From positions 1 through 42,384 of the forward strand of contig NZ_JACIGI010000031.1 in the NCBI RefSeq assembly GCF_014197795.1: a stretch of DNA of 42,384 nt, written 5' to 3'. The notes beneath the pieces were generated by a model. That model was given only the letters and a program-made list of their open reading frames with translations. It was not told the DNA's origin and made no database searches. The position numbers and the translations under genes were made by a program. This DNA is from Roseospira goensis. Lineage in GTDB: Bacteria; Pseudomonadota; Alphaproteobacteria; Rhodospirillales; Rhodospirillaceae. Below, piece by piece: positions 19 through 35,606 of this stretch (position 1 is its first letter; every line of letters begins with the position of its first letter).

Positions 19-95
<77 letters not shown>

Positions 96-285: not shown

Positions 286-2187
286 TCACGAAGTTGTCCG
301 TTGCCATGCGTGTTCAAAAAACGCGGAGCCGCCACTTGCGAGCGTATCGACCAAAAACGCCCTGTCGAGATACTGGTTCCGCGCTTCGCAACTGGTTTCA
401 GAGACGAGTAGGCATCCATGACAAGCTGCGCCCTGCAGGGCTCTGTCATCCAAAGTGGTGCCGGGATCGTGGTCCGAGCAAATTGGATCGTTCGAGCAGA
501 CATGGAGACGCTCAAAGGCGCGTCTGAAGATGGGAACGATCATCCGATGCTGGGCGACTACGCCGCCCAATGTCCCTTGAGTCCCAGACGTCGCCGTATA
601 GATTAGAAGTCCACACTTGTCAAAACGGCCAGGCTGAGACAGTGACTCCAGCGCGTAAACTCTTTCTTTCAACGCGTTGGCTGGGTAACCGCAGACCAAG
701 GCAATTTCGCTCATCAGCGCATGCGAAAGGCTATGAATCATGGTGTAGACAACGCCGGGCAGGCGAAGCGGATCGATGTCGCGGCTCAGGGCCCAGGTGC
801 GATAGGCCGCCGAAAGGCGCGCCGCACGTTCCTGTGTTCCCGTCCTTACCAGCCAATCGGCGACCGAGGCCGGGTCGAAGTGAAAAAAGAGCCCTTCACC
901 GAACTGCTCGACCGCCGGCAGCCAATCCAGGTCCGAAGAGAGTGGTGCTCCGTCAACCTTGAGCTGTATGTCTTCCAGTTCATCGTCGAAGGCAGTTCGT
1001 GCAGCTTCGAATCGAGTGAAACCGTATAGACAAGAGACCTCTCGCAGCCGATGGACGGCGATCAAAGCCTGGATACCTGAGCAGATAGGGTCACTGTCCG
1101 GATCCCAGGTAACGCGCGACAGCGTTTCCGCGAACAGCCGGGCCTGCCGTGTGTCCTCACCGATGTGCGGTCGGCCGCAGGCGAACACGTCGAACTCGGC
1201 TAGTTTTGGGGAGCGGGATAGGTTTTGTGTCGCCTGGGTGATCTGCCTTTGAACCTCGTCCCAAACCTCCTGATTTGACCAGCCCTCAAGCGCAGCCTTG
1301 AGCTCCGGCACCACCTTCCGGGCGACGCCGATCTCAGCCGCGCTGTCGCATTCCTGTAGACGGCTAAGATTGGCCTGCACCCGCTGGGCCAGCTCGTCAG
1401 AGGCCGCCGGCAGTGAGATGACTGTTGCGATCTGCGCGAAGTAGGCATTGGTGGCGGTGCGAGTCAGAAGACGGAGGGCCTTGTTACATCCCGCCGGGTC
1501 CGGCGTGTCTAGCCAAGGCCGCTCACCCTTGCACGGGCCCAGTCGGCCCGGCGCGAACAGCTGATCCAGGCTGAGGCTGCGCCCGCAATCGCACCGAATG
1601 CTCACATCCCGCGGGTCTGCGCTGGTGCCTTTTTCCACCATCCAAAGCGGTTCGCGGCAGTGGTCCTGCCCATGCACCACCCAGCGCCAATCAATATCCT
1701 GGAGGTGCCCTTTCTCGCACGCGCCGACGAAGCGGATCGGTGTGACGGTCCGCTTTCTGCCGTTGTCATCGATCCATTTCAGTTTACCCGAGGGATCGAG
1801 GTCGCCCCATTTTACTAAACGGCGTCGTCGTTCTCGGTTCGCGTCCTCGGCATTGTCCTGAGGCCCACCGTCCTCGGCGTCCACGACGAACCAGATCGGA
1901 AACACAGTGACCTGGACGCCTGGAGGCGCTTTCGTTCCCGGCTGATCTTCCAGCAAGGGCGGCGTTCGGAGGGACAGGTGGCGGGCTTCGTCGAGACGGC
2001 CGGCGGCTTTGAGCATGGCCTCCAAGCGGGCGGCAAGGCGATCCTCCTCGATCACTCTGAACGTGCCATCCCGCATCTCCCAGCGATCGAGTCCGCCAAT
2101 CAGGACGGATCGAGTGGGCAGGTCCACCATGGCGCCGGGACCGAACGTGGTGATCAGTTGGCCAATCCGCTGGGTCGTGCGGCTCAT
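286..2187 (-). CDS. drmB: DISARM protein DrmB (DUF1998 domain)
   Basis: The 633-aa protein has the DUF1998 signature near its C-terminus (CHGCLLVSETSCEARNQYLD, about residues 590-610) and further zinc-binding style Cys pairs (CEKGH; RCDCG). In DISARM, DrmB works with the helicase DrmA as the core pair that recognises and blocks incoming phage DNA. The N-terminus (QLITTFGPGAMVDLP) is typical of the family. Its start lies 21 bp after the drmA stop, so the two are co-transcribed. It is the last gene of the operon; only about 150 bp with no visible gene separate it from the tRNA terminator, and the expected drmC is missing. Family assignment is strong; function is inferred from the family. Confidence 0.93.
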   Translation of the reverse strand: MSRTTQRIGQLITTFGPGAMVDLPTRSVLIGGLDRWEMRDGTFRVIEEDRLAARLEAMLKAAGRLDEARHLSLRTPPLLEDQPGTKAPPGVQVTVFPIWFVVDAEDGGPQDNAEDANRERRRRLVKWGDLDPSGKLKWIDDNGRKRTVTPIRFVGACEKGHLQDIDWRWVVHGQDHCREPLWMVEKGTSADPRDVSIRCDCGRSLSLDQLFAPGRLGPCKGERPWLDTPDPAGCNKALRLLTRTATNAYFAQIATVISLPAASDELAQRVQANLSRLQECDSAAEIGVARKVVPELKAALEGWSNQEVWDEVQRQITQATQNLSRSPKLAEFDVFACGRPHIGEDTRQARLFAETLSRVTWDPDSDPICSGIQALIAVHRLREVSCLYGFTRFEAARTAFDDELEDIQLKVDGAPLSSDLDWLPAVEQFGEGLFFHFDPASVADWLVRTGTQERAARLSAAYRTWALSRDIDPLRLPGVVYTMIHSLSHALMSEIALVCGYPANALKERVYALESLSQPGRFDKCGLLIYTATSGTQGTLGGVVAQHRMIVPIFRRAFERLHVCSNDPICSDHDPGTTLDDRALQGAACHGCLLVSETSCEARNQYLDRAFLVDTLASGGSAFFEHAWQRTTS

Positions 2188-2208
2188 GCTGAAGGTTCCC
2201 CGGATCCG

Positions 2209-5200
2209 TCAGTCGAGATCATCGGCATTGGCCAGTGGCTGGCCCCATGGGTTCATGACCTTGAGATAGACGCTGCCCTCAACATCCCGCATGGACCATC
2301 CGGCTACAAAATTCTGATGGTCGGGGCTTTCGTCCTTGATGAGGGGATCCAAAGGTGCATAGAGGAGATGCCGCCTGCCGCCCCGATGGGAATAGGAAAA
2401 GCGGGTCCCTTGAGCCGTCAGGTCATCGGCCGTGCGCGTCCATGCGTCAAGAAGGTCGGCAACACGGGTCCTTAGTGCTCCTTTTCCGCCCACGACGCAG
2501 TCCTCGTCTGGCACCCGGCTCACAATAGCGTCGATCACGCGGGTGCGGACGTCGGGATTGTCGGACAACGCGCCGACGGCCGTTTCCGCCGTCATCGCTG
2601 AATCGATATGGCGCCCGATCGCAACCACGATGGCGGCCAGCGCTCGGTCGAGCGCGCGTGGGGCCCAAGGTGTCACTGTCGTCGCCTCCACCGACCGGTA
2701 GAACGATCGGTGGAAGGCGCCGAAACCCTCATAGTGCGTCCGGTCCCGTGGCTTGTGCAGGTTCAGGATGGTCAGAACCAACCCCGGTCGAAAGGCGTCC
2801 CGGCCCACGCGGCTGGTGGACTGGATGTATTCGGCCGCTGTTTTCGGCTGCCCCTGAACGACCATCACGCCGAGCCGAGAGATATCCAGGCCCACCGAGA
2901 TCATGTTGGTGGCGAGGGCGACATCGACACGCGCGCCAGACAGGGAAAAGGGGCGCGATAGGGCCGTCTTGGCCTGGGCCACGTCGTCTGTCGAGACGCG
3001 CGACGTCAGTTCCAGGGGTTCGCCGATGTGGCGATCCGCGAAGGGGGCGTCCGGCGGGGCTAGGCGGCGCCGCTGGCGTCCGTACCCCCGGGCATAGTTG
3101 CGCACTTCGTCCTCGACGATGCGCCGCGCACCGCCCAGTTCTCGCAGGCTGTTGAAGTAGCATAGCGCCGTCATGTAGGGGTCCGCCGCCGCCCCGTGCT
3201 CTTCGAACGCCTTCATGCCGGCGGCCGTCAACGTGTTGAGGGTCCTCAGGAACACCAGCTTCGGCCCACGTCCCTGGGCCGCCAGGCCGACATACCAGCG
3301 CGGTGGATTCTGCTCGTCGCGCACGGTTCGGGCAAAAAAGCTGTCCGTGCGGTCGATGCCGGGGGGCGGGAACACGGCGGTATCCGTCCGGTCGAACAGC
3401 AGCCGGATCTGCTCCGAGGCCTGACGAACCGTCGCCGTCGATGCGACGATCTTGGGCCGGACACGCCCCCCGTCATGAACCCTTGAGGCCAGACGGTCGA
3501 TGGCTGTCTCGTACAGCGCCGCCACGGTTCCCAGCGGCCCCGAGATCAGATGCAATTCGTCCTGGATGATGAGGGCAGGCGGTTCAAGCGTTGACCCGTT
3601 GAACAGCGGCCGTCCCGCGCGTGGGTCATCGGCGGCGCCGAAGAAGCCCAGGTCGGCCTCGAACCGATCCACATGGCCGAAGAAATGCCCGGTCTCGCCG
3701 ATCCACGGAAGGGCAGCGAACTTATCCACCGTGGCGATGAGGAACGCCGGCAGGCGGCGATAGATGGCATCATCCACCGTGACGATGGGCAAGGGGCGGT
3801 CGCCTGTGAAGTCACAGGCCGTATTGGCGCACCGGATCTCCAGGTTGTGGGGTGTCTGGGCGTTCGGGACCAAATCGAACGACTGCCGCGAGAACGCCGT
3901 GCCGCACCAGGGACATGTCTTGAGTGGAGCCGGCGGCTTTTCTCCTGTCCTCTTGAACCGACGCACCTGCGTGACGGCGGTATGGTTGCCGGTGTTGCCT
4001 CGGCCCCCCAGGACGTTCGGGGTTGCCGCCGAGCCCACCCACAGCCCGATCTCGATGGGCCAGTCTCCCAGCACCGGCCGGCCCTGCGCATCCACCAGGG
4101 CCGGGTCGGTGCGCGCCAGCTCGAGGGCGCAGACCACGCCGGCGGCCCGCGACAGCTGGTCCAGGGTCAGCAGACGCAGCGTGTAGCGCATGATGACGGT
4201 GACCCCAGCCCCCAGGACACCTGAGGCAGACAGTCGTCTGTGGGCGATGGCGAACGCGGCGAGCCCGAGGTAGGCCTCCGTCTTTCCGCCACCGGTGGGG
4301 AAGAACAACAGGTCCACCGTCTCCCTGTCGGGATGGTCCCCCTTCACCAGCCCCGGCAGGTTGAGGAGCACGAAGGCAAGCTGAAACGGTCGCCAGCGCA
4401 GGGCGGCAACGGTTTCCGGGGCCTGGCCGATGTCCGATCCAATCCGCTGCCGGTGTGCTCGAGATACAGCCCGGTTCGCGATGGCGAACGCCTGCCGGGC
4501 GCGGGGCTGTTCGCGCAGCAGCCGAATGCCCTCGGCGATGCGGTCGCGGGCGCGGCGCATCGCCGTGACCAACGTTTCCCCGGTCTCGCGTCGCCGGGGT
4601 GCCAGCAGGCTGGCGGCCTCAGTGACTTGGGACCCAATCCAAGTTCCGTACTGGTCCGGTAGGGGGGCCAGGGCATCCCCGAGGGCTTCGCCAGTGCCAT
4701 CGGCCAACGCAGCCAGTGCCTCGGCATCGAAGGCGACGTCCGTGATGGCTTCGTTTGGTGCGATCCGGTCCACCTCCGCCAGCGGTAGCGGGGTTGTCCA
4801 GACGTGGCGGACCACACCGTCGGTGGGATCGCGTGTCCAGTCCGTCGCCGTGTTGCGGCCGGTGGCAAAATCCTCTTCGTTGCGGTAGTGCAGGTCGGCG
4901 ACGCGCAGGTCATGATCGGTCGAACGGTAGTCCGACAGGTCCAGCCGAGGTGCGAAGCCCGCGTCGCAGAACACGTCAAGCCGGGCCTGGAACGCATAGC
5001 TGACGTCGCGGTGTCGGCTGCGTGGCCGACGCCGTCTGTTGACCAGGAACAGGGTGACGACCAACACCTCCCGCGTGTGTCCTTCCGGCATCCGGATCGT
5101 GGTCGGCCGGGCCACGCTTTCCAGCACCAGGGCACCGCCGGCGCCCATGGGGGCGGCACTGCCTGGCAACACCGTCCGGGCGGGTGCGCCCGGTGCGACG

Positions 5201-5730
5201 TCAATCGTGACCTTTGCCTCGCCCGGCTGGCGGATCCAATCCGGCGCGAAGGGGTCCTGGTTCTCGCTGTCTTCTGTCTCAGCCGTGCTGATGTCCGTGG
5301 CCTCGGGGGCGCGCCAGATCGTCGGCAGCGGCGGTTCGGTGACATAGTCGCCCCAGGTGGCCCGCACCTGAAGGCGGGACACGGTGCGGTCCACCAGAAC
5401 GGTCAGCCCCACCGACGAGGGCAGGAAGCGGCGCTTGGCGGCTGGGGTGTCGTCGGCAGCCTCATCGTCAGCCGCGCCATCTCCCAAGACAGAGGCATCG
5501 GTGTCTTCCGTCTCCAGGAGCGTTTCCCGATCTTCCTGCATGGTGGGGTCATCGGCCGCGCCGACCGGGTCCTCCGCCGGCGCGATGAAGCCGGTCAGGT
5601 ACCACCGCGAGGGCGGCTCCTTCAGGCGTTCGCGGGCCAGATCGGCGTCGGTCGGCTGCGGTGCAGGCCCAACCAGATCGCGGCGCAGAACGTCGACAAG
5701 CTGGGAGCGGATGGCGGAGGGCGTGGTCAT
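2209..5730 (-). CDS. drmA: DISARM helicase DrmA
   Basis: The 1173-aa SF2-type helicase has the DrmA N-terminal motif RWYLTGFIAP (about residues 43-52). A Walker A-like motif (FFPTGGGKTEA) lies near residue 477, a four-Cys zinc ribbon (CPWCG ... CANTACDF) around 605-640, and DEXH as DELHLISGP near 725. The helicase C-terminal part (ATNMISVGLDISRLGVMVV, then STSRVGRD) spans about 945-980. DrmA pairs with DrmB in DISARM and binds and blocks foreign DNA. It starts 24 bp after the stop of the YwgA-like gene. Length and motif order fit an intact gene. Confidence 0.93.
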   Translation of the reverse strand: MTTPSAIRSQLVDVLRRDLVGPAPQPTDADLARERLKEPPSRWYLTGFIAPAEDPVGAADDPTMQEDRETLLETEDTDASVLGDGAADDEAADDTPAAKRRFLPSSVGLTVLVDRTVSRLQVRATWGDYVTEPPLPTIWRAPEATDISTAETEDSENQDPFAPDWIRQPGEAKVTIDVAPGAPARTVLPGSAAPMGAGGALVLESVARPTTIRMPEGHTREVLVVTLFLVNRRRRPRSRHRDVSYAFQARLDVFCDAGFAPRLDLSDYRSTDHDLRVADLHYRNEEDFATGRNTATDWTRDPTDGVVRHVWTTPLPLAEVDRIAPNEAITDVAFDAEALAALADGTGEALGDALAPLPDQYGTWIGSQVTEAASLLAPRRRETGETLVTAMRRARDRIAEGIRLLREQPRARQAFAIANRAVSRAHRQRIGSDIGQAPETVAALRWRPFQLAFVLLNLPGLVKGDHPDRETVDLLFFPTGGGKTEAYLGLAAFAIAHRRLSASGVLGAGVTVIMRYTLRLLTLDQLSRAAGVVCALELARTDPALVDAQGRPVLGDWPIEIGLWVGSAATPNVLGGRGNTGNHTAVTQVRRFKRTGEKPPAPLKTCPWCGTAFSRQSFDLVPNAQTPHNLEIRCANTACDFTGDRPLPIVTVDDAIYRRLPAFLIATVDKFAALPWIGETGHFFGHVDRFEADLGFFGAADDPRAGRPLFNGSTLEPPALIIQDELHLISGPLGTVAALYETAIDRLASRVHDGGRVRPKIVASTATVRQASEQIRLLFDRTDTAVFPPPGIDRTDSFFARTVRDEQNPPRWYVGLAAQGRGPKLVFLRTLNTLTAAGMKAFEEHGAAADPYMTALCYFNSLRELGGARRIVEDEVRNYARGYGRQRRRLAPPDAPFADRHIGEPLELTSRVSTDDVAQAKTALSRPFSLSGARVDVALATNMISVGLDISRLGVMVVQGQPKTAAEYIQSTSRVGRDAFRPGLVLTILNLHKPRDRTHYEGFGAFHRSFYRSVEATTVTPWAPRALDRALAAIVVAIGRHIDSAMTAETAVGALSDNPDVRTRVIDAIVSRVPDEDCVVGGKGALRTRVADLLDAWTRTADDLTAQGTRFSYSHRGGRRHLLYAPLDPLIKDESPDHQNFVAGWSMRDVEGSVYLKVMNPWGQPLANADDLD

Positions 5731-5754
5731 GACAACGGGATCGGGTACGGCATG

Positions 5755-6288
5755 TCAGGCGATGGCCGGGAGCGGCTTGGGGGTTTTGAGCGCGCTGATC
5801 TGCCTGTAGATGTCCTTCGCTTTCGCCAAGCGCTCCGGCGAGGCCTTTTCCGGCTTGCGGCGCGCCGTTTCCTCCCAGGGATCGGGGACCTTCTCGACCA
5901 TGTGCAGAAAGGCGGCGGTGGCGGCCAACTCGAGTTCGATGGCACCGAACGTCGCGACGGTGCTAACGAAGGCACTCTTGCCCTCGTCCAGCGTCTCCGG
6001 ATCGGAATCGACGGTATAGATCGAATACCAGCCGCCCCACTGGGTGGGTTTTTCCTCCTCCTTGACGAGTTCGAAGACTTCGGCCAACTCCATGGCGTCC
6101 GACAGGTCCTCGCTGTAGGGGCCGTAGTGCCGGTATTCGAAGTCGAATCCCTCGCCGTAGCCGGCGAGTTCCATCAGGTAGGCCGTTTTCTGAAGGCGGG
6201 TGCGTCCAACCAACCTACCTCCGGCATGACGGACGATGCTGACGGCCTTTTCCCGGTCGGCCATAGCCTTCCTCATGAACCCGGTCAT
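5755..6288 (-). CDS. YwgA-like protein inside the DISARM operon
   Basis: The 177-aa protein resembles Bacillus YwgA: an N-terminal stretch GRTRLQKTAYLMELAGYG followed by FEYRHYGPYSEDL. The pattern LQK...Y...YGPYS recalls the Panacea/SocA-like (DUF4065) antitoxin fold, a remote similarity I infer by eye. Its start overlaps the stop of the upstream HD gene by 4 nt (ATGA) and a G-rich ribosome site precedes it, so translation is coupled. In Bacillus, ywgA also lies near an HD phosphohydrolase gene (ywfO), which supports a functional pair. It is not one of the defined DISARM genes. Possible roles are regulator, partner or antidote of the HD enzyme. Other in-frame ATGs lie at residues 5 and 9. Confidence 0.75.
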   Translation of the reverse strand: MTGFMRKAMADREKAVSIVRHAGGRLVGRTRLQKTAYLMELAGYGEGFDFEYRHYGPYSEDLSDAMELAEVFELVKEEEKPTQWGGWYSIYTVDSDPETLDEGKSAFVSTVATFGAIELELAATAAFLHMVEKVPDPWEETARRKPEKASPERLAKAKDIYRQISALKTPKPLPAIA

Positions 6289-7721
6289 GTGCCCGTCCCC
6301 CCTGTTTCCTGGTCCAAGGCTGTCCTCACCACCGCTTCGGCATCCGGGTCGTCACGGCCCACATAGGCCCTGAAAAACTCGAACGGCTCAACCGCCGCAA
6401 CAATCGGCGACACGGTTGCGATGTCAACCACATCGCCGGCCAGAGAGCGCATGTGGATTTGATTCAGAGGCCCTTTCGATCCCTGCAGTCGGGTATAACA
6501 GCTTCGTTTTCCCTCATCGATCAGAATGCGCGGCGCTTGGGCGGCATTGTCCGCGTTGAATTGCTCGATCCGCTGCCCGATCAATTCCTGGCGCGCTTTC
6601 ACCCATCGACGTTGGTCCTCACGCTCAGCCTCGGTCATGGCCTTGTGCGCCGGGCGCCGCCGTTCAAGTTCGATGCGGATATCGATGCACCTCGGCAGCC
6701 TTCGGTCCAGAAGCATGCGGCTCAGACGCCCAACGTCCGCGTCATTTGCCTCCCGCATCATCGGCAATGCGCCCCAGAACACGGTGTCATCGAGGTCCAG
6801 GGCGCGATCAAGGCAATCGGGCGACACGGCAAACCGGATGATCGGGTGCGTCTCCGGCAGGCCGGTTGCCGCGACGTTTTCCGACTTCACCAGCGTCATG
6901 ACGCGCGCCATCAGTTCGGTGAACACTTTTTCGGCGGCGCGGGTTGCCTTGTGAAAGTATACATTGGGATAGAGGTGAAACAAAGAGAGAACGTAGTTTT
7001 CCGCCGCTTGCGTCGCTTTCGGGCCGAGCACGAAGGTCTCGATGGTACCGGCGGGTTCGTTGTCCTCCACCACCTGAACCTCACCGATCTCCAGGTTCGC
7101 CGTCAGCCACTCAAAGTCGATCCTGCTGTTGCGCACGCCGGTCATCAGGCTGTCGCGCCGCATGTAATCCAGGCGGTCGGCATCGAACTGGCTGGATACC
7201 ACGGCGTCATAAAGGGTACCCGGCCCCTTGCGCCCGATCAGCGTCGCGACGTCATTGGCGAAGCCGCTGCCCATCGCTCTGAAAGCCTCGGCGATCTCGC
7301 TGTCCCGGATCAGGCGCTGGCTGACCTCTTCATGGCTGGCCAGCGCCAGACCGAAGCGCTCGCCGATCTTCTCGAAGGCATGGCTGAACATGCCGTGGCC
7401 GACATCGTGAACCAGGGCGGCGGCCACGGCAACGCGGGCGTCATGCTCAAGAACTTCGCTTCCGGAGTCCGAGATATATTTCCGAATGATGCCCATCAGG
7501 CGCCGGGCGGTGTGGAAAACGCCGAGGCTGTGCGCGAAGCGGGTGTGGGTCGCGCCCGGAAACGTGTATTCCGAAAAGCCAAGCTGGCGCACGCGGCGCA
7601 GGCGCTGAAACGGGCGTGTCTGGACCACGGTCCACAGGGTTTGTTCAAACTGACTGCGGTCGAACGGGATCAGATCGTGCAGGGGATCGCGGATGCGCTG
7701 GGGTCTGGCGGACGCGGTCAT
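6285..7721 (-). CDS. HD-domain phosphohydrolase (dNTPase-like) inside DISARM operon
   Basis: The 478-aa protein belongs to the HD superfamily related to dGTPases and YwfO. It opens with RDPLHDLI, then has HTRFAHSLG (metal His about residue 64), VHDVGHGMFSH (His-Asp at 105-106) and SQFDADRLDYMRRDS, the late Asp motif of dNTP triphosphohydrolases. The start at 7721 has GGAG 8 nt upstream and lies 40 bp past the drmMI stop; a longer reading to 7841 would overlap drmMI and lacks family similarity. By family it may cleave (d)NTPs or other nucleoside phosphates. Within a phage-defence operon this could mean dNTP depletion, which is inference. All metal residues appear present. Confidence 0.85.
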   Translation of the reverse strand: MTASARPQRIRDPLHDLIPFDRSQFEQTLWTVVQTRPFQRLRRVRQLGFSEYTFPGATHTRFAHSLGVFHTARRLMGIIRKYISDSGSEVLEHDARVAVAAALVHDVGHGMFSHAFEKIGERFGLALASHEEVSQRLIRDSEIAEAFRAMGSGFANDVATLIGRKGPGTLYDAVVSSQFDADRLDYMRRDSLMTGVRNSRIDFEWLTANLEIGEVQVVEDNEPAGTIETFVLGPKATQAAENYVLSLFHLYPNVYFHKATRAAEKVFTELMARVMTLVKSENVAATGLPETHPIIRFAVSPDCLDRALDLDDTVFWGALPMMREANDADVGRLSRMLLDRRLPRCIDIRIELERRRPAHKAMTEAEREDQRRWVKARQELIGQRIEQFNADNAAQAPRILIDEGKRSCYTRLQGSKGPLNQIHMRSLAGDVVDIATVSPIVAAVEPFEFFRAYVGRDDPDAEAVVRTALDQETGGTGT

Positions 7722-7761
7722 GAGGGCTCCATCAGGGACGACACCCTGACGTGTACCACTC

Positions 7762-10700
7762 TCAGGGATCGGCGAAAAGTTCGCCCTGACGATCGGGCGC
7801 GCGGCCCGTCCCTTTGGTCTCGTCGCCGTCATCTTCCGCATCGTCTCCCGCGTCGTCCCGGGGGCCGGCGGTCAGGCCGAGGGCCTGTTCCGCCGCCGCG
7901 CGCTCGGCGTTGAGGGCCAACAGGCGGGCCAGCACCTCATCGCGCACCGGGGCCGGCCAGAACAGGCGGCCCTGATAGGTGAAGTCGGCTTCCGTGTCTT
8001 CGGTCAGGAATTCCGGCACGGCGTCGGGGATCAGGTCGTCCCAGCCATAGGCGCGCAGGACGGCGTGGTCCATGGCGGTGTGCAACTCCCGCAGGCGCAC
8101 GATGTCAGCCGATTTTTCGCGGGGAGTGTGGAAGCGGTTGTAGGTCTTGGTCAGGCCCTCGTCGCGCGCGATCATCAGCGCGGCGCGGTGGTCGTGATAG
8201 GCGCGGCCGGCGGCTTCCAGCGCCGGGTCAATTGAATTGTTAAGAAAGGGGAATGTGAAAAAACAATCTGATACCGTGTACGTTAAATCGTCCTTAAATG
8301 TGGTTCCAAAAAACCTTGCCCAAGTTTCATGAATTCTGCATTGAATGCATGAAAATTTGATGTCGTTTCCCAGAAATACATTTAAGTTCTGCGAAAATAC
8401 CAAACTGCTCTGCAGTATTGAGATTAGAAATTGTGGAGATGCCTTGCTAGAGGTCGCGTAAACCCAATCGTTTGACGAAATGTCACAATACAGGCCAGAC
8501 CTTCTTTCAGCGAAGCGCCACCATCGGTTTCTATAGGCTGGCCGGTTGTCCGTGGCCCTTTCAGGGCGAACCGTACGCTCTATGATCTCCAACAGATCCG
8601 GCCAATCCGCCGCCACCGGGCCGGGGTAGTCGCGCGCCATGATGCCATCGCGTCTTTGTCTGTCCCGCGCCTCTTCCGACAGATCCCACCAACTGTCCGT
8701 GTTGGGGTCGCGGCGCAGGGGGAAGTCCTCGAAGTCGATCACATAGCGCCGGTGCCGCTGGCGCGGGTCATTGTTGACCTCCTGGCCGCCGATATAGGGG
8801 AAGATGCGTTCCGCGTTGCGCGGGTCCTTCTCGATCAGGCGTTCCATGTCCGCCAGGGACGACGCCTCCCCCTTCGCCGCAGCGACGTCATCGAAGGTGA
8901 AGCCCATGCCGAGCACGATGGAGCCCTGGAACGCCTTGCCCCGGTTGGCCGTCAGCCGTTGCGGGGAGTCGTCCAGCGGTCCGTCCACCAGATAGGCGGA
9001 GATGCGCTCGACCAGCCGCCCGTCCAGCAGTGGCTTCGCGACCGTGCCCTTGACCACCGTGACGACGGAGACCACCACGGCGGCATCGCCCGGCCATTTC
9101 AGGCGGCGGGTGGCGTGGCTGATGGCACCGCCGGCCTTCAGGATGGCGGTCAGGCCGGTGGCCCGGGTGTCGCCCTGGCGGATGGTGTTGGTGGCGATCA
9201 GGCCGAAGGCGCCGCCCTCGCGGATCAGGCCGAAGGCGCGGCGGAAGAAATGCGCCACCACATCGCTGTTGCCGTGGGCGCCTGGGTTGATCGTCTTCAG
9301 CCAGTCAGCGTATCCGGCGCGATGGCCGGCCGCCAGGGTGTTCTTGCCGGCGAACGGCGGGTTGCCGACGATGGCGTCGAAGCCCGGGTTGGGCCGGTCC
9401 ACGAACACCTCGGGGAATTCGACCGGCCAGTGGAACGGCGTGACCGGATGCTCGCCCCGCCGCAACCCGGTGCGCAGGTCGTCCACCTTGCCCTGTTCGG
9501 CCGGGCTGTCGTGCCAGCTTTCCAGGTCCTGTCGCGCCTTTTCCCGGGCGCGCGCCCTGTCGGCGGAGAAGAAGGCGGCGATGACGGCATCGCCCAGCCG
9601 ACGCACCTCGTCCAGCACCGGTTCGACCTGGCGCAGGCGCACCTCCTGTACGGCCTGGGCGACATCGTCCGGAGCCTCCCGGATCTCCCGCCGCGCGGCC
9701 ATGACCTTGTCGATGCGCTGGCGGACATGCCGCGACAGCAGCGGCACGCCCTTGCCGCCCGGCGCCCAATGCAGCGCGCCGATGGCGGTGAGGGTCAGGC
9801 CGACGAGGCTGTCGCCGGCCTTCAGCGCATGGTCGAGGAAGGTGAACTCGTGGTCGCGGGCCAGGGTGGCCAGCCACAGCGACAACCGCGCCAGATCGAC
9901 CGCCATCGGGTTGCGGTCCACGCCGTACAGGCAGCGTTGCGCCACCAGACGGCGCGCCAGCAGATCCTCGTCCTCATCCGACGGCACCTGGGGGCGGCTG
10001 CCGGGATGACGTGCCCAGGCGGCGACCAGGGCCTCGGCCAGCACGCGGCAGGCCTCGACCAGGAAGGCGCCGGAGCCCATGGCCGGGTCGCAGACCTTCA
10101 GGTCCAGCACCTGCGCCGGGGTGGCGTCCGGCCCCAGACGCTCCAGGGCCGGCGCCAGGGTCTGGCGCACGATCGGGCCGCTTAGGTCGCGCGGGGTGTA
10201 ATGGCTGCCTGTGCGGCGACGCTCGTCGGTGGGCTGCAGGATGGCGGCGCCGGCCGGCAGCACGGCGGCGCCGGGGCTGCCGCGCTCATCCGCGATGGGT
10301 TCCAGCGCGGCCGCCAGAGCGGTGCGGTCGTTGGCGGCCTTGAGCGCGCGTTCCACGCCGGCGCCGAAACTGGTGCGGTGGGTGCCTTCCTTCAGGCGCT
10401 TGAGGCGATCCTTGGCCTTCAGCCCAACGAGTTCGTCCAGATCGACGTAAACCGGCACCGCGTTGCGCTTGCCGCCGCGGATGGCCAGCACGGGGCCGCA
10501 GGCGGCCTCGACCGTGAAGCCCATGACGGTCTCGTAAACCGAGCCGATTTGCTCCACGTCCAGGGTGCGGTAGGACAGGCGCTCGCCGTCCAGCATCAAC
10601 AGCCCGTCCAGGATGGCCAGGACGGTGCCGTCGGTCAGGGCTGGAACGCGCGACGCCTGGTCAGGGGTGGCCCGGCCCTCCAGAAACGGGAAGCGGGTGG

Positions 10701-11853
10701 GGTCGAACAGCGTGCCGCCGCGCCCGATCATGAAGCCGCCCCGGACGCCGCCATGGATCATGCGGAACAGGGCGAGGATCTGGCCCCAGCCGCCGACCCG
10801 CTCGTCCATCGTGTCGGGGTGGCGGGCGCGGTCGTCCAGCAGGCGGGCATGCAGGCCGCGCAGGGCATAGCCGCGCTCGTACAGATCGCGGGCGGCCGCG
10901 TCGGTGCGGGCCGGCAGCAGGTCCCGGTCCTCGGCGAACAGGATGAAGACGAGGCGGAGAAGGACCGTCAGCAGGCCCTCGTACAGGTGCTGCGGCCGGT
11001 GTTCGACCAGGCCGGCGATCAGGTCGGGTTCGGCGGCCTTGAAGCCCCGGAGCAGGTCATGCAAGGCTCCCAGCACCTGCCCCGACAGCTTTGTCGAGAC
11101 ACTGGCCTGGGCGGCACGGCTTTCACGCAGCAGCGCGGACAGCCGGTGGCTTTCCGGTGCCGTGAACAGGCGCTCGACACCCAGCATCAGTTTGAGCCCG
11201 CCCAGCATGGACCGCCCGGCGACGGTCGTCAGCGGCTGCAGCGGGAAGGCGAGCCAGCCGGAAGTCTCACCCTTCGGCGCATAGACCAGCCGGATCTCGG
11301 CATCTTGAGGGCGCTGCCGTGGTTCACAGACCAGCACGCCGGCCTCGATGCCGCTTTCGCGCAGGAGGCGTTCGAAGCGGTGTTGCGGGGTCGCTTCCCA
11401 GCCGTCCAGGCCGCCGCGCGCGTCGGGATCGACACCGGGCGCCTCCAGCCGGACCAGAAGCTGATGGCGGGGCGCGCCGTTGGCCCCCGCGCCGGATTTG
11501 CCCGCCGCTTGAACGGCCCACTGCGGTTCCAGCGTCGTGTCGTAGTCCGGCAAATGGACGCAGACTCGGTCGTCCAGCGCGGGACCGTCGGGCGCACCCT
11601 CGATCCGCGCGGCCGGCCAGCCCAGGATGTCGCTGAAGAAGGCCCAAGGGTCGGGCAGGGATGGGCCGTCATCTGTCGGGTCGCCCAGCAGCGCCGCGAC
11701 GGCGGCGTTGTCGGCGCGGGTCTGGAGTTCCGGCACCAGACCCAGCTCGCGCAGCCGCTCCGGGGCGACCACGAGGCCCACGGGCCTGACATGATCAAGC
11801 CATTCCCGATCCGGATCGGTCAGGGGGATGTCGGCGTTTCGCATCCGCGTCAT
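7762..11853 (-). CDS. drmMI: DISARM adenine methyltransferase DrmMI
   Basis: The protein is about 1363 aa, a size usual for DISARM class 1 methylases of the Eco57I/PglX-like type. SAM-binding motif I (CDPAMGSGAFLVEACR) is near residue 588 and catalytic motif IV (GNPPF) near 832, typical of N6-adenine methylation. It would mark host DNA as self. The chosen ATG overlaps the drmD stop by 4 nt (ATGA); the reading frame extends 5 codons further upstream. Within the C-terminal third (about residues 1110-1210, bases 8231-8520) GC falls to roughly 39% by hand count, while the flanks look close to 70%. This part includes the likely target-recognition region, so a recombinational swap is suspected. No frameshift is visible. 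Confidence 0.92.
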   Translation of the reverse strand: MTRMRNADIPLTDPDREWLDHVRPVGLVVAPERLRELGLVPELQTRADNAAVAALLGDPTDDGPSLPDPWAFFSDILGWPAARIEGAPDGPALDDRVCVHLPDYDTTLEPQWAVQAAGKSGAGANGAPRHQLLVRLEAPGVDPDARGGLDGWEATPQHRFERLLRESGIEAGVLVCEPRQRPQDAEIRLVYAPKGETSGWLAFPLQPLTTVAGRSMLGGLKLMLGVERLFTAPESHRLSALLRESRAAQASVSTKLSGQVLGALHDLLRGFKAAEPDLIAGLVEHRPQHLYEGLLTVLLRLVFILFAEDRDLLPARTDAAARDLYERGYALRGLHARLLDDRARHPDTMDERVGGWGQILALFRMIHGGVRGGFMIGRGGTLFDPTRFPFLEGRATPDQASRVPALTDGTVLAILDGLLMLDGERLSYRTLDVEQIGSVYETVMGFTVEAACGPVLAIRGGKRNAVPVYVDLDELVGLKAKDRLKRLKEGTHRTSFGAGVERALKAANDRTALAAALEPIADERGSPGAAVLPAGAAILQPTDERRRTGSHYTPRDLSGPIVRQTLAPALERLGPDATPAQVLDLKVCDPAMGSGAFLVEACRVLAEALVAAWARHPGSRPQVPSDEDEDLLARRLVAQRCLYGVDRNPMAVDLARLSLWLATLARDHEFTFLDHALKAGDSLVGLTLTAIGALHWAPGGKGVPLLSRHVRQRIDKVMAARREIREAPDDVAQAVQEVRLRQVEPVLDEVRRLGDAVIAAFFSADRARAREKARQDLESWHDSPAEQGKVDDLRTGLRRGEHPVTPFHWPVEFPEVFVDRPNPGFDAIVGNPPFAGKNTLAAGHRAGYADWLKTINPGAHGNSDVVAHFFRRAFGLIREGGAFGLIATNTIRQGDTRATGLTAILKAGGAISHATRRLKWPGDAAVVVSVVTVVKGTVAKPLLDGRLVERISAYLVDGPLDDSPQRLTANRGKAFQGSIVLGMGFTFDDVAAAKGEASSLADMERLIEKDPRNAERIFPYIGGQEVNNDPRQRHRRYVIDFEDFPLRRDPNTDSWWDLSEEARDRQRRDGIMARDYPGPVAADWPDLLEIIERTVRPERATDNRPAYRNRWWRFAERRSGLYCDISSNDWVYATSSKASPQFLISILQSSLVFSQNLNVFLGNDIKFSCIQCRIHETWARFFGTTFKDDLTYTVSDCFFTFPFLNNSIDPALEAAGRAYHDHRAALMIARDEGLTKTYNRFHTPREKSADIVRLRELHTAMDHAVLRAYGWDDLIPDAVPEFLTEDTEADFTYQGRLFWPAPVRDEVLARLLALNAERAAAEQALGLTAGPRDDAGDDAEDDGDETKGTGRAPDRQGELFADP
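8231..8520 (-). other. AT-rich mosaic block inside drmMI
   Basis: About 290 bp with roughly 39% GC (114 of 290 by hand count) sit in a gene otherwise very GC-rich. The frame stays open. The encoded part contains WVYATSSKASPQFLISILQ and ends at the conserved DCFFTFPF motif, which lies at the end of the target-recognition region in related methylases. The sharp change of composition at both edges suggests import by recombination. Confidence 0.7.
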
Positions 11854-14800
11854 CCCGTCGCCGGCCAAAGATAGACGAGGCCGACCGCCTCCACCCGGTG
11901 TGCGCGCGGGGCATGGGCGTCGCGGACGCGGGCGGGTTCCTCGGCGATCTCGCGATCAAGGGCGGTCAGGCGCTCCGCCCAATGGCGGCGGTCGCGCTCG
12001 CGCTGGCGGCGTTCCTCGGCCGGCCAAAGTTCAAGCTGATCGGCGTCTTTCGCCGTTCTTGCGATGCGCGCACGCTGGTCCACCAGAAGCGCTTTCAGGC
12101 TGTCCGCCTCGCGCGCGCCCAGGGTTTCCAGTTGTGCCGTCACGGTGTCCAGGCGCGACGCCGCGCGCTCGTTCAAGGTCGCCTTGAGGGCGCGGGAGTC
12201 ACCGGGGGCCATGGCGCGTACGCGGTCGGCCACGGACTCAGGTACTGGACGACCAGCGCGGAGGGCGTCCTCAAGCTGGTCCATGGTGGTCGCCTCGCCC
12301 GTCTGCCCCAGGGCCTTGAGCGGGGTTCGGCCCCAGTCCCGTTCGCGAATCAGAGCGGTCACCGGGATGAACTCCTCGTGCAGGCGGGCGGCGCCGGGGC
12401 CATAGACGGCCAGACGCCCGACCATGACGAGACGCGGCTGGGCACCGGGACCGATCAGGGCGCAGACGCGGTTCAGGCGGGCCTGGAAACCCTGCGACAG
12501 GAACCGCGACAACAGCCGCCGGACGAAGCGGTGTTCCAGGTGGATCTGGACCACGTCGGCAGCATCGGCGCCCGTCTCTGCGATGGGCGGTTCGAAGGCG
12601 ACGGCGCGGGCCGGTTCACGCTGGCGCCAGACGGCGACGGGTTCACGGTGTCCGCGTTTGCGCGGGCGGAGATCGTCGAAGATGGTTGTCCAGCCCGGAT
12701 CATTCGCGAACAGCGGCAAGGCGGGGTCCAGCCTGAAGGTCTCGACGCCGTCCTTCAGCGTGTCCGCGCGGGCCGCATCCAGGGACACCCCCGACCGCCC
12801 CAGGGCCGTTTCGACCACGCGTCGCAGCTCACCGGGATCAATGCCGACCTTGCGTCGGGAATCTTCCAGAACACGGCGCAGATCATCCAGGTCCGCCTTC
12901 AGGCGTGAGATGCGGGCGTCCCGTTCGTCGTCCATCTCGTCGCGGCTGGTGGCAAGGCCCGCGTCGTCCTCTTCGGCGTCGATGGCCCGTCCCAGCGCGG
13001 CGGCATCGCCCTGTCGGATCCCCGCGCGCGTCAGGCGATCCGAGATGCGCGATTCGACGACCTGCCCGACGGAGCCAAGCTGGGTGCGGATGCGCTCGGT
13101 TTTCTCCACCAGGGTGCGCAGGACTACGTCTTCCGCGCGCTGCGCATACACAAAGTAGCGGCACGTCACGACGGGGGAAGGCTGAAGCTTGCGGTCAATA
13201 CGGCCGTTGCGTTGTTCCAGGCGGCTGGGGTTCCAGGGCAGGTCCACATGAATCAGGTCGTGGCAGTGGCTTTGCAGGTTGATGCCCTCCCGCGCGGCAT
13301 CGGTACACAACAGGATGCGCACGGGCGCCTTGTCCGGATCGGCGGTGAAGGCGGCCTTGACGGCCTCGCGGCGGTCGGCACCGGTGGCACCGGTGAAGGT
13401 TTCGACGCGAGCATCGGCGCGGTCCGTCTCGGCCAGGGCTTCCAGCAGGCGCTTCTGCAACCAACGCCGGGTGTCTTCGTACTCGGTAAACAGGATCAGC
13501 CGGCGGCGGGTCCAGGTCGTGCCGTCGTCGGCCAGCATGTGGGTCCGCACCCATTCCATAATCCAGTCGACGCGCGCATCGGGTCTGGTTGCCGCCGGTT
13601 TCGCCACCGCCAGCATGCGATCAACGTGTTCAAGCTCGTCCGCAAGGGCGGTGCGGGTCGCTTCGCGGGCGCCCAGACGGGTGATTGCGTCCGTCTCGTC
13701 ATCCTCCTCCCGGTCCAGCATGTTTTCGAGGGTGGCGTCGTCGTCCGCGCCTGGGAGCAGGTCGTCAAGGTCCGGTGGCGACAGGTCGTCCGGCTTGGGC
13801 CTGTCCAGGAGGTCTTTCTCTGCGGCGTCCAGCGCGGCGGCCAGGGATCGGCGGTGAACCTCCAGCGTGCGGGCGAACGCCGCGACCGAAGACAGAAGGC
13901 GCTGTTGCAGATGAATGAAGACCAGCGTTGCCCGCGTCCGCTGTCCGGGCGGAAGACCTGCCAGACGACTGTCGCGCACGTCGGCATATGCCATCAACAT
14001 GCGCGACAGAACGAGTTCCGGCGAGGAGTCTGGCAAGCCGTCCAGGACAACCGGCTCCACCCTTCGTTCAGGAAAGGCACGAGAGTCGATGGCTCTCAGG
14101 TCTGCCTTCAGGCGGCGCACCATGATCGGCTCCAGGTCCCTCGGGCGCACCGGCACTCCCCGCGTGAAGCGCTGCGGGTCCAGGATTTCCAGCAGGGCCG
14201 AAAAGCTGTTGGAATGGCCGTTGTGGGGCGTGGCCGTAAGGAACAGGCGATGTTCGAACCGGGGTGCGATGTCGCGGATGGCCTGGGTGAACTGGCTGTC
14301 GATGGCGTATTTTGCGCCGCTTGCGGGGGCTGAGTTGTGCGCCTCGTCGAGGATCAGTAGTGAACGGGGGCGGAAGGAGCCGAGGATATCGCGCAAGCCG
14401 GCCGTGTAGGTCTCATCGGTCAACAGGCGGTGCGAAATGATGAAGCGTGACCCAGTGCTCCAGGGGTTGACCCCAAACCCCCTCAATCGCCGCAGCTCGG
14501 CAAGCCTTTCTCGGTCGATGATGGTGAATGAAAGGCCGAACTTGGCTTCCAACTCGTCCTGCCATTGCTGAGTCATGGATGGCGGGGCCGCCACCGCTAT
14601 CATGTCGATGCGCCGCCGTAGCAGGAGTTCGCGAACAATCAGGCCGGCCTCAATGGTCTTGCCCAGGCCGACGTCGTCAGCGATCAGCAGGTTGACGCGT
14701 GGGAGTCGGAGCGCCTTGCGTAGTGGCAACAGCTGATAGGCATCCAGGCGAATACCGGCCCGGAACGGCGACTGCAATAGATGCCGGTCCGCCGAGGTCG

Positions 14801-15101
14801 CCGTGTTCCATTTGAGGGTTCGCAGATAGGAGGCGAACACTGGAATGTCGTCCGTGCCGTCTCGAGCGATTTCCCCCCACGCATCATCCGACAAAACCTG
14901 CGGCGCGATCTCCGCAGACCAGACCACATCCAGTTGGTCACCCTGAGCGTCGTCGGAAATACAAGAAAGGTTGAGGAAGGGCGTCCCGCCATCAGGGTGC
15001 GAAGCGCCTTCTACAAGCCAGGGGCGTCTACGGATCTCGACGAAATCTCCTACGGAAGGATGGCGCTCCACCGAGTTCTCCATGTCAGGTGTCGCCCTCA
15101 T
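11850..15101 (-). CDS. drmD: DISARM SNF2-like helicase DrmD
   Basis: The 1083-aa SNF2/SF2 helicase defines class 1 DISARM. It has Walker A (ADDVGLGKTIEAGLI, about residue 140), DEAH (LLILDEAHNS, about 252), a TATPHNGH motif III region, and a C-terminal helicase domain (LFTEYEDTRRWLQKRL about 540; LCTDAAREGINLQ about 595; WNPSRLEQRNGRIDR about 625). It is the first gene of the operon. An alternative ATG lies six codons in (15083), and neither start has a convincing ribosome site. It presumably translocates on DNA together with the methylase and DrmAB to exclude phage DNA; this is a family-based role. Confidence 0.92.
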   Translation of the reverse strand: MRATPDMENSVERHPSVGDFVEIRRRPWLVEGASHPDGGTPFLNLSCISDDAQGDQLDVVWSAEIAPQVLSDDAWGEIARDGTDDIPVFASYLRTLKWNTATSADRHLLQSPFRAGIRLDAYQLLPLRKALRLPRVNLLIADDVGLGKTIEAGLIVRELLLRRRIDMIAVAAPPSMTQQWQDELEAKFGLSFTIIDRERLAELRRLRGFGVNPWSTGSRFIISHRLLTDETYTAGLRDILGSFRPRSLLILDEAHNSAPASGAKYAIDSQFTQAIRDIAPRFEHRLFLTATPHNGHSNSFSALLEILDPQRFTRGVPVRPRDLEPIMVRRLKADLRAIDSRAFPERRVEPVVLDGLPDSSPELVLSRMLMAYADVRDSRLAGLPPGQRTRATLVFIHLQQRLLSSVAAFARTLEVHRRSLAAALDAAEKDLLDRPKPDDLSPPDLDDLLPGADDDATLENMLDREEDDETDAITRLGAREATRTALADELEHVDRMLAVAKPAATRPDARVDWIMEWVRTHMLADDGTTWTRRRLILFTEYEDTRRWLQKRLLEALAETDRADARVETFTGATGADRREAVKAAFTADPDKAPVRILLCTDAAREGINLQSHCHDLIHVDLPWNPSRLEQRNGRIDRKLQPSPVVTCRYFVYAQRAEDVVLRTLVEKTERIRTQLGSVGQVVESRISDRLTRAGIRQGDAAALGRAIDAEEDDAGLATSRDEMDDERDARISRLKADLDDLRRVLEDSRRKVGIDPGELRRVVETALGRSGVSLDAARADTLKDGVETFRLDPALPLFANDPGWTTIFDDLRPRKRGHREPVAVWRQREPARAVAFEPPIAETGADAADVVQIHLEHRFVRRLLSRFLSQGFQARLNRVCALIGPGAQPRLVMVGRLAVYGPGAARLHEEFIPVTALIRERDWGRTPLKALGQTGEATTMDQLEDALRAGRPVPESVADRVRAMAPGDSRALKATLNERAASRLDTVTAQLETLGAREADSLKALLVDQRARIARTAKDADQLELWPAEERRQRERDRRHWAERLTALDREIAEEPARVRDAHAPRAHRVEAVGLVYLWPATG

Positions 15102-15299: not shown

Positions 15300-16178
15300 C
15301 TAAATCCTGTCCCGGCGGAACTGCGAGGGCGTCGTTCCGGTCACCTTGCGGAACACTTTGGTGAAATGTCCGTGGTTGGAGAAGCCTACGTCCAGGGCGA
15401 TGTCGACGATGGTCCGGCGGTCGTCCAGTAGGAGTTCCTTCGCCTTCTCGACCCGCCGTTCATGGAGATACTGGTACGGGCTGCGGCCGAACGAGGTGTG
15501 AAACGCAGTGCCGAAGTGTGAGCGGCCGAGGCCGACCACTGTGGCCATCTCGGAAAGCGGAACGGTGCGGTCGAGGTTGGCGTCTATGAAAGCCGTGATC
15601 CGTCTCTGTCGCGAGGCGCCGAGGCCCCCGGAGAGATAGTGCGCGTCACCATCTCCGACGGCGTACTTCTCAAAAAGCCGGAATGCGAAAGCCGCGCCGA
15701 ATTGGTCGACGGACCGGCTTGCTCTTTCAGCCGCCTGATTTAGGGTTTCCGCAAACCACGGGATCATGTCCGACAGCACGGTGTCCTCGACGACAGCAGA
15801 GGGGATGAGACGCGGCACCTTCCCCTGGAACATCGGCGCAATCGACGACTCCACGAACTCCGGCGTCAGCGCCACAATCAGGGCGGCATCGCACCCATCC
15901 CATTCGACCCGCACCGGCCGATCCGCCGGGATCAGATGGAAAGCGGTTCCGGACAGCGATACCGTCTGGTCCTTCGGCGCGTCCAGGGTGCGCCAGCGGG
16001 CTGTCACCGCGCTCGCCGGCCGCACGAGCGCCGTCTGAAGAAGTTTCGTCCAGTGCCCCGGACGGGGCGGGAACCGGCAGCGGCAGACGATGAGGCCGTT
16101 ACCGGTCGCCCGCTCGGTCAGAGTGTCACACAGGACCAACCTGTCCGCCTGGAAATCGATCGTCAGGATGTCCGTCAT
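15300..16178 (-). CDS. AraC-family transcriptional regulator
   Basis: The 292-aa protein has an N-terminal sensing region and a C-terminal double helix-turn-helix of the AraC/XylS type. The HTH covers about residues 195-292, with GLGRSHFGTAFHTSFGRSP, YLHERRVEKAKELLL, IVDIALDVGFSNHGHFTKVF and ending TPSQFRRD. The start at 16178 has GGAG 8 nt upstream; an upstream ATG at 16238 has less support. It lies on the same strand as the DISARM operon, ending 198 bp before drmD, so it may control that operon, but its ligand and targets are unknown. It could equally be an unrelated neighbour. Confidence 0.88.
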   Translation of the reverse strand: MTDILTIDFQADRLVLCDTLTERATGNGLIVCRCRFPPRPGHWTKLLQTALVRPASAVTARWRTLDAPKDQTVSLSGTAFHLIPADRPVRVEWDGCDAALIVALTPEFVESSIAPMFQGKVPRLIPSAVVEDTVLSDMIPWFAETLNQAAERASRSVDQFGAAFAFRLFEKYAVGDGDAHYLSGGLGASRQRRITAFIDANLDRTVPLSEMATVVGLGRSHFGTAFHTSFGRSPYQYLHERRVEKAKELLLDDRRTIVDIALDVGFSNHGHFTKVFRKVTGTTPSQFRRDRI

Positions 16179-16603
16179 GGCAAGCGCTCCATGATCGGTG
16201 CGGTCGACACCCCCCAAGCACGCTCTCGCAGCGCGCAACCGCTAAAGGCACGGCAAGACTTCGATTATGGTTCATCGTCTTCTTGTCTTAATTGTGTCGA
16301 CAGAAAATGGTCGTTGGACGGATGTATGGCGATGTTTAGAGCCGCTCTAGTCTGCGGGCATCGCGTCTCACTGCCGGGGAAACAGCAGAGGTCTGCGACG
16401 TTTTGGTTCGTTTGCCTGATATCGCATGAGACCCCGGTATTTCGTGAAAGCCGCTCTTGCCAGGGTTGTCGATAGTCATCGACAGGGCCGCGTCAGGTAG
16501 AACGGCCGGAACTCCGAACATCCTCTGATCCCGTTCCAATCCGGTGCGACATCGTCGGCCGGTTGCGCCGTTTCGCGCCGTGGTCCTTGAGGAGGGCCGT
16601 TCC
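16179..16603. other. Divergent intergenic region with 7-bp inverted repeat at 16467-16484
   Basis: These 425 bp separate the divergent araC and DUF2285-type genes and hold no convincing ORF. The part near 16255-16340 is AT-richer, as expected for promoters. A perfect repeat TGTCGAT-AGTC-ATCGACA at 16467-16484 lies about 120 bp before the DUF2285 gene and is a candidate operator for one of the two regulators. Confidence 0.45.
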
Positions 16604-33159: not shown

Positions 33160-33823
33160 CCTTGGCTTTGCGTCGCTTCCTTGCGATCGTGCGGTCATCT
33201 GTCGGCCGCGCGTCGGGCGGTACGACCGAGAGCCGGCGCGGCCGTCCCCGAGCCGGATGGGCCTCGGCATACAGCACGGCGAGATCCAGGGCCTCGCCGT
33301 CGAGGTCGGGGTAAGCGGCCAGGATGCGCTCGCGGGGCAGGCCGGTGGCTACCGACGCGGCCAGGTCATGCACCGGGATGCGCGTGCCCCGGACGACGGG
33401 CATGCCGCCCAGGATGGCCGGATCCTCGGTCACGCGTGCCTGCGCGGCCCCCAGCCGGGTGCCCCGCGTGTCGGCATCCGCGACGAAGGGGGACAGGCTG
33501 ACGCTCAGGAAGTCGTCGTCAACCCGCCAGTCGGCCTCCGCCCAGCCCTCGAAGGGACGAGCGAGAAGCGGGGCGGTAATGCGTTCGGAGAAGCGGCCGA
33601 TCAAGGCGAGGCGTTCCTCCGCCGTCAATGCTCGCGCGGCGCGGACATAGAACCCCACCAGCGGACAGGCGGCCAGATGGACGCGCCGCCCGTCGGCGAC
33701 CGAATAGAGCCGTTCGGGCAGGATGCGTTCGTCGATCACCCGGTTGACGTCGCGCAGGGTGACACCGGCGACGACGGCGGCCTCGTTGGGGGTCAGCAGG
33801 CTGGCGGCCATCATATGCCTCAT
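33131..33823 (-). CDS. DUF433-domain protein (antitoxin-like)
   Basis: The 230-aa protein starts with a helix-turn-helix-like region (LTPNEAAVVAGVTLRDVNRVI). The DUF433 domain covers about residues 135-190, with DPAILGGMPVVRGTRIPVHD and RILAAYPDLDGEALDLAVLY. DUF433 proteins are commonly antitoxin-like partners of PIN-type (DUF5615) toxins; no such gene is next to it here. The start is ambiguous (33823, 33814 or 33811). It converges on parE with a 29-bp overlap, so the two transcripts can pair as antisense. Confidence 0.8.
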   Translation of the reverse strand: MRHMMAASLLTPNEAAVVAGVTLRDVNRVIDERILPERLYSVADGRRVHLAACPLVGFYVRAARALTAEERLALIGRFSERITAPLLARPFEGWAEADWRVDDDFLSVSLSPFVADADTRGTRLGAAQARVTEDPAILGGMPVVRGTRIPVHDLAASVATGLPRERILAAYPDLDGEALDLAVLYAEAHPARGRPRRLSVVPPDARPTDDRTIARKRRKAKVTGSAAPCV

Positions 33824-33842
33824 AAATCGTCCGATGCTTCGG

Positions 33843-33871
33843 AATATAATTCACTCTGATTGCCTCGCCAA
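33843..33871 (-). promoter_or_regulatory. Promoter of the DUF433 gene
   Basis: On the minus strand TTGGCG (33871-33866) is followed after exactly 17 bp by TATATT (33848-33843), about 20 bp before the first ATG. Spacing and hexamers fit a sigma-70 promoter with a short leader. Confidence 0.55.
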
Positions 33872-33995
33872 GGTCCAAGGCGGTCGCGTCGTACACCATC
33901 GCATCAGACCGCCGTTGTCCGGTTCGGGCCGCTGGCCGAGCCTTGTCCGCATCGTCCCGGCACTCTCGCCGGGACCGGAGCGGACGGACGATGCC

Positions 33996-34932: not shown

Positions 34933-35131
34933 GCAGCGTTACCGTCCATTTAAGCTGCCATGGACCGCCAAACCCAACGACCCGTCATTGCAATCAGCCT
35001 GCTTGTCCCCCACTTCCTACAACAACCGACCGAAAGTTGCCGGATCCTGTTGACATCGGGTGAATCTTGTTGCTTTCTGTAGAGGTGTGGCGTATGAGAT
35101 GCGTCCCCAAAATCCACAGTGAGCGTATGGC

Positions 35132-35344
35132 ATGCCTCGGTGTAACGGTGAAATCAAGAGATTGCGGTTGGCGTTAGGCTTGTCACAAAACAAGGCGGCG
35201 GGTCGAGCTGACTTGGATCGCTCAACTTATCGGAATGCAGAGCACGGCGAGCCTGTGAGCGAGCTCACCGTTGAAAAGATCGCCATGTGCTTTTCGGATC
35301 TTAGTGGGAAGCCAGTCACTGCGGCTCAGCTTGTCAAAGAGTGA
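35132..35344 (+). CDS. XRE-type helix-turn-helix regulator
   Basis: The 70-aa protein has a single HTH_3-like domain: EIKRLRLALGLSQNKAAGRA, then LDRSTYRNAEHGEPVSELTV and a third helix VEKIAMCFS. It probably represses its own cassette. The stop overlaps the GTG start of the next ORF by 4 nt, so the two form an operon. Confidence 0.8.
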   Translation: MPRCNGEIKRLRLALGLSQNKAAGRADLDRSTYRNAEHGEPVSELTVEKIAMCFSDLSGKPVTAAQLVKE

Positions 35345-35592: not shown

Positions 35593-35606
35593 ACAAGGTT
35601 TCTTGG

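Follow-up and report, generated by a model that had tools for sequence, protein, structure and literature searches.

DISARM operons and their accessory genes

Class 1 operons of DISARM (defence island system associated with restriction-modification) have the gene order drmD-drmMI-drmA-drmB-drmC. An operon of this kind lies in the 42,384-nucleotide stretch of Roseospira goensis DNA analysed here (hereafter the window, which is contig C31 from its first base). Its DrmD, DrmMI, DrmA and DrmB are encoded in that same order and on one strand, but it lacks drmC, and a gene pair encoding an HD-domain phosphohydrolase and a YwgA-like protein sits between drmMI and drmA.

Accessory genes have been noted in DISARM before: 'additional auxiliary genes' are mentioned for its operons (PMC9142583), and in Pseudomonas some 70 homologues of ShdA lie within DISARM-like operons (PMC10270631). 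ShdA (Shield) resembles the HD-YwgA pair in being an accessory defence gene inside a DISARM operon; however, it is an RmuC-domain protein and was reported from one host genus (PMC10270631). Other restriction systems offer a functional parallel. PrrC lies within ecoprrI and becomes active upon inhibition of the restriction enzyme, PrrC and PARIS are described as guardians of restriction-modification (RM) systems (PMC12707154), and backup effectors are described for BREX loci (PMC12839542), although the terms DISARM, YwgA and HD domain are absent from the text of the last. Those effectors are of abortive type and provide a second layer from within or next to an RM-like operon, a position that the pair shares by lying between drmMI and drmA; they are nucleases, whereas the module in the window is a predicted deoxynucleoside triphosphate (dNTP) hydrolase. 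Searches of open-licence papers turned up neither an account of exchangeable contents at a drmMI-drmA slot nor one of HD-YwgA in DISARM.

A variable position between drmMI and drmA

Coordinates are those of the window unless another locus is named, with genes taken from its open reading frame (ORF) listing and ATG starts. The space between drmMI and drmA is 2031 bp long (5731..7761, minus strand) and is occupied by the HD and YwgA-like genes. Of 31 class 1 loci, 19 have an estimated gap of more than 250 bp at this junction, where the contents vary; the corresponding counts are 4/31 for drmD-drmMI and 0/31 for drmA-drmB. All these gaps are estimates from tblastn starts, and the −338 of L082, for example, becomes 13 bp when measured between ORFs. 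Class 1 DISARM thus has a variable accessory position between drmMI and drmA. The original prediction, made from the window's sequence, regarded the embedded pair as an accessory or effector, which remains the best way to read it, and the case for a general accessory position has proved stronger than that prediction could see; its further proposal that the pair replaces drmC is taken up, and set aside, below.

The 31 loci comprise 12 genomes, 18 plasmids and the window. DrmD exceeded its cut-off in 1/7 genomes of the genus (the window's own), 2/74 of the family, 4/385 of the class and 7/398 of the phylum, and in further samples at 4/321 (class of G399), 5/199 (order of G716) and 2/199 (family of G582). 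These samples overlap; together they gave 17 distinct genomes besides the window's, 12 of them with a readable drmMI-to-drmA stretch. A tblastn search of plasmids with DrmMI returned 30 records, of which 20 were taken and 18 were usable; the records left out were H28 and H38, which look like near-copies, and H35, H36, H40, H48, H49, H50, H52 and H53. Loci were excluded where drmA was not found (L063), where the slot spans the start of the record and holds hypothetical genes (L066, L106), where drmA-drmB-drmC is inverted (L084), where the operon runs off the contig or stretch (L083, L087, L100, L101) or where the DrmD relative falls below the cut-off (L049-L052). A search of viral_contigs returned no DrmA relatives.

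The commonest cargo, present by tblastn in seven loci (L055, L056, L058, L085, L086, L098 and L099), is a gene with HTH_3 and Peptidase_M78 domains, which were read in L055 only, followed by a gene of about 170 amino acids; some of these loci have an additional gene ahead of the HTH/M78 gene. The slot of L065 holds a PtuA/AriA-like ATPase and a DUF4435-like gene, and genes matching these in size and place occur in L102 and L103 (the domain scan was made of L065 only). A GHKL ATPase with Methyltransf_35 fills the slot of L096, to which L105 has matching DNA (88% over 3505 bp), while L095 carries a UG5-nitrilase reverse transcriptase and L061 an MqsA antitoxin with a helix-turn-helix domain alongside a SecB-like gene. 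L057 and L064 have one gene each, without assigned identity, and antisense genes occupy the slots of L104 and L107. HD-YwgA was found in the window only.

Two more specific identities were considered for these contents. That the ~170-residue partner of the HTH/M78 protein is a PIN toxin was not established, its start looking PIN-like by eye only and PIN models giving no match (one copy scanned; five copies at E up to 1). Assignment of L065 to PARIS is not firm, since its ATPase scores 107 bits for PtuA against 91.5 for AriA; the partner scores 24.9 bits for AriB and 26.0 for DUF4435, just below the cut-off of 27. Elsewhere in L095 (5940-12310), drmMI is interrupted by an inserted ORF that appears transposase-like by eye.

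As judged from sequence comparison, slot contents are exchanged between related operons. The Nostocales plasmids L062 and L064 encode DrmD, DrmA and DrmB that are 97-98% identical, and DrmMI proteins at 90%. Within the drmMI-drmA stretch, to which the DNA comparison was confined, homology breaks off where drmMI ends and is restored where drmA starts; the flanks are 96-97% identical, and 161 bp (L062) or 1538 bp (L064) separate them. On the DrmA tree, where long branches were flagged for L104, L047 and L068 and odd composition for six rows, the empty slot state requires nine changes, and L096, with a filled slot, is placed next to the empty L046, L081 and L097, all on very short branches. A supported set of nine DrmA rows (97/98) contains the window, and six of the nine hold the HTH/M78 pair. 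The rows nearest to the window have this pair, suggesting replacement of one module by another, the closest grouping (86/96) being under the tool's star threshold. The G+C content at third codon positions of the HD and YwgA-like genes (0.76 and 0.83) lies inside the range of the drm genes (0.68-0.84), so composition gives no mark of recent arrival.

The HD-YwgA pair

The HD protein (6285..7721, minus strand, 478 amino acids) matches Pfam HD at 45.1 bits (cut-off 22) and HD_assoc_2 at 23.2 (cut-off 23.1). Its best PDB match is 2o6i (E 2.4e-56, positions 10-346), followed by 2q14, 2hek, 9mr6 and SAMHD1 entries; 2o6i bears the entry title 'HD domain protein', and we take it to be the E. faecalis dNTPase EF1143. 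The H...HD...D motif of the HD phosphohydrolase superfamily is present, with H64, H105-D106 and D182 invariant in seven aligned sequences; these residues are presumably catalytic, by comparison with SAMHD1. Given this homology to solved HD proteins (2o6i, 2q14, 2hek and SAMHD1), with the motif residues kept, hydrolysis of dNTPs is likely. The protein stays far below the cut-offs of the models for dGTPases, including anti-phage Dgt, scoring 34.1 bits where TIGR01353 requires 152 and 19.7 where NF041026 requires 400. Its predicted structure has a mean pLDDT confidence score of 52.6.

The partner (5755..6288, minus strand, 177 amino acids), for which the name YwgA is used here, had no Pfam match at E 0.001. 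Its named matches were DarG models, at 30.5 bits in PADLOC and 22.8 bits in NCBIfam (cut-off 250), and it covers only positions 167-322 of the 329-position PADLOC model. The structure model matches the DarG chains of 7yk3 along its whole length, and its residues 1-114 also match winged-helix structures; the protein is thereby shown, at the level of a model, to have a fold like that of the DarG C-terminal domain. In DarTG, this domain sequesters the toxin DarT. The pair is not a DarTG system, as the YwgA-like protein is without a macrodomain and is partnered by an HD protein instead of DarT. Of the open-licence papers found on YwgA, none by title treats the protein's function and none joins YwgA with 'HD domain'.

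Beyond the window, the YwgA family was found in 11 loci (seven in named genomes, three among the 398 phylum genomes and one in IMG/VR), which places it in 4/398 phylum genomes and 1/7 genomes of the genus with the window included. The HD gene lies directly upstream of the YwgA gene in all 10 loci with visible upstream DNA, L008 being cut. HD-YwgA is best described, on sequence similarity, as a portable module found outside DISARM too. In a Priestia plasmid, the gene after an HD gene encodes a remote YwgA relative (hhalign probability 96.1 over 69 columns; 32.8 bits), so the pairing looks old. B. subtilis ywfO and ywgA presumably form a pair of the same kind. Searches with tblastn at E 1e-5 returned no YwgA relatives in plasmids and phages, and the pairing does not hold in reverse, since HD relatives in three alphaproteobacterial plasmids and in Paenibacillus had no YwgA match in the stretches examined. 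Two further arrangements were seen. In L044 (8252-17515), a type I RM operon with two consecutive hsdM-like genes plus hsdS and hsdR begins 62 bp downstream of HD-YwgA. On Sinorhizobium and Roseibium plasmids, an HD gene without YwgA recurs in a four-gene cassette of radical SAM, 3'-5' exonuclease, AAA ATPase and HD (L071 3622-7407, L072 267-3886, L073 3626-7413), near annotated defence-type genes in L071 and L073.

The operon and its class

The six genes are complete and follow one another on the minus strand: drmD (11850..15101; SNF2-like helicase, 1083 amino acids; NF038317 1025 bits, cut-off 610), drmMI (7762..11853; MmeI-like adenine methyltransferase, 1363 amino acids; Pfam MmeI_Mtase and Eco57I), HD, YwgA-like, drmA (2209..5730; helicase, 1173 amino acids; NF038325 1068 bits, cut-off 950) and drmB (286..2187; MZB/DUF1998-type, 633 amino acids; NF038324 509 bits, cut-off 240; Pfam MZB). 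The DrmA and DrmB core is accompanied in the same operon by DrmD and DrmMI, the latter at 1176 bits for the PADLOC model PDLC02643, as expected of class 1, and the class 1 order given above agrees with L046, L067 and L068. With ATG starts at 11853 for drmMI and 7721 for HD, the junctions are -4, +40, -4, +24 and +21 bp; the full frames before start choice span 7762-11868 and 6285-7841 on the minus strand. At the HD start, the frames of four of six homologues begin at the same place, and GGAG lies five bases before the ATG.

drmC, which is usual in class 1 DISARM and not defining, is absent. Searching with the DrmC model NF038319 gave hits in 10/14 control genomes and none in the window's own genome. 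Beyond drmB lies a tRNA-Met (CAT; 19..95, plus strand, ARAGORN), which lies at the contig end, as the window starts at the contig's first base. The original prediction is thus borne out in describing a class 1-like DISARM without drmC and with a tRNA beyond drmB, and its gene order, strand and five junction lengths are exact.

Role of the pair

We tentatively read the locus, at a little under even confidence, as a drmC-less class 1 DISARM whose exchangeable drmMI-drmA slot holds a portable HD-YwgA module, a restrained dNTPase that would act as a second layer. The pair would be co-expressed with DISARM, and the YwgA-like protein would bind and restrain the HD enzyme, as the DarG C-terminal domain does DarT. 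Infection, most plausibly through interference with DISARM or a changed DNA or nucleotide state, would free the enzyme, which may then hydrolyse dNTPs, lower their level and stop replication of the phage (and the cell) beside DISARM. This model is patterned on PrrC, PARIS and the BREX backup effectors. None of the 30 other class 1 DISARM loci has the pair (nor did six dropped loci that were scanned have an HD match), and none of the 11 other HD-YwgA loci has drm genes nearby (blastp, within 10.7-20.5 kb). On these counts, the idea that HD-YwgA marks a recurring DISARM subtype was rejected, and the pair is no constant component of the system, an outcome that the original prediction had itself named as telling against it.

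The same counts favour passenger cargo, in which a dNTP-homeostasis or stand-alone defence pair occupies a permissive transcribed place with no functional link to DISARM. We consider this somewhat unlikely. It is also favoured by the ordinary neighbours of the Priestia pair, by the antisense genes accepted in L104 and L107 and by the unremarkable composition of the pair. However, the pair lies in sense orientation with operon spacing (+40, -4, +24), and no promoter-like sites occur within 5500-8000, although this search used the sigma-70 consensus only and is a weak test either way. Defence or antitoxin-type contents fill the same slot in L055, L061, L065 and L095, and in L044 the pair adjoins an RM operon. 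Five terminator-like sites were found within 5500-8000 against 1.7 in shuffles, two of them overlapping, on the coding strand and inside the HD gene, again a weak test.

A more ambitious form of the restrained-dNTPase reading, which we hold to be unlikely, is that class 1 DISARM reserves the methylase-helicase junction for effectors, with HD-YwgA acting as a guard of toxin-antitoxin type: a DarG-C-type protein would restrain a dNTP hydrolase up to the point at which DISARM is blocked or phage DNA is present, giving two layers with the second swappable.

Less probable still is that the slot hosts regulators, the YwgA-like and HTH/M78 proteins controlling DISARM expression and the HD protein serving as a nucleotide-sensing partner. 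The HTH_3 and Peptidase_M78 domains of the commonest cargo, the winged-helix matches in the first 114 residues of the YwgA-like protein and the helix-turn-helix of the L061 antitoxin would fit this idea, but the contents also include a reverse transcriptase-nitrilase, a PtuA/AriA-like ATPase and a GHKL ATPase with a methyltransferase, 12/31 loci have no slot over 250 bp, and the whole-length match of the YwgA-like protein is to DarG-C.

The weakest proposal, that the pair substitutes for drmC as the DISARM effector, fits the window's own content (pair present, drmC absent) and is very improbable, since drmC is lacking throughout the window's clade, whether the slot is empty or filled, and shows no association with slot filling. 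In the supported DrmA clade (100/99) that holds the window, drmC occurs in 0/14 operons, the ORFs downstream of drmB having been listed for the 13 other members; leaving out the long-branch L047 gives a 13-row set (100/99) with 0/13. Five of the 14 slots are empty (L047, L048, L054, L059, L060), eight hold other cargo and one holds HD-YwgA. Outside the clade, drmC is present in 14/17 loci, L095 being counted after a further stretch was taken (13 before). Over all 31 loci with this correction, drmC is present in 7 and absent from 12 with filled slots, and present in 7 and absent from 5 with empty slots (p = 0.29); for L104, whose stretch ends 214 bp past drmB, absence rests on the annotated next gene. 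Absence of drmC is a trait of this DrmA clade. DrmC is reported both as dispensable and often missing (PMC9142583) and as typical of DISARM (PMC12458937).

Genomic setting

On the far side of drmD are an AraC-type gene, an IS21 pair, ArdC, a ParB-like gene and, further on, DUF3363, TraG-like, T2SSE and VirB3-like genes; because of this company, from the IS21 pair onwards, a conjugative-type element probably carries the DISARM operon. The AraC-type regulator (15300-16238) immediately precedes drmD in the same orientation and may control DISARM. The conjugative-type region (17563-42384) includes the ArdC anti-restriction protein. Within 33723-37000, the TraG/VirD4-like ORF matches profile positions 36-209 of 468 only and ends where a low-GC stretch (44-48%) starts at 35-37 kb, so that this transfer gene looks cut short.

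In L054 (4141-23888; NZ_CP155757.1), the entire drmD-drmMI-drmA-drmB operon is flanked by cas3 and casA of a type I-E CRISPR locus, and in L048 (5118-6854) a GmrSD-type gene directly follows drmB. A DNA cytosine methyltransferase and a very-short-patch repair endonuclease adjoin DISARM in L105 (1875-3387) and L067 (20093-21784).

Implications for DISARM

How DISARM finishes off phage is unsettled, with DrmC described as dispensable (PMC9142583). If the slot hosts second-line modules, DISARM would join type I RM and BREX as a host of guard systems. Every slot content would then be a candidate abortive or counter-anti-restriction module, and the HD-YwgA reading would give a testable function to a little-studied pair that reaches into the Bacillota.
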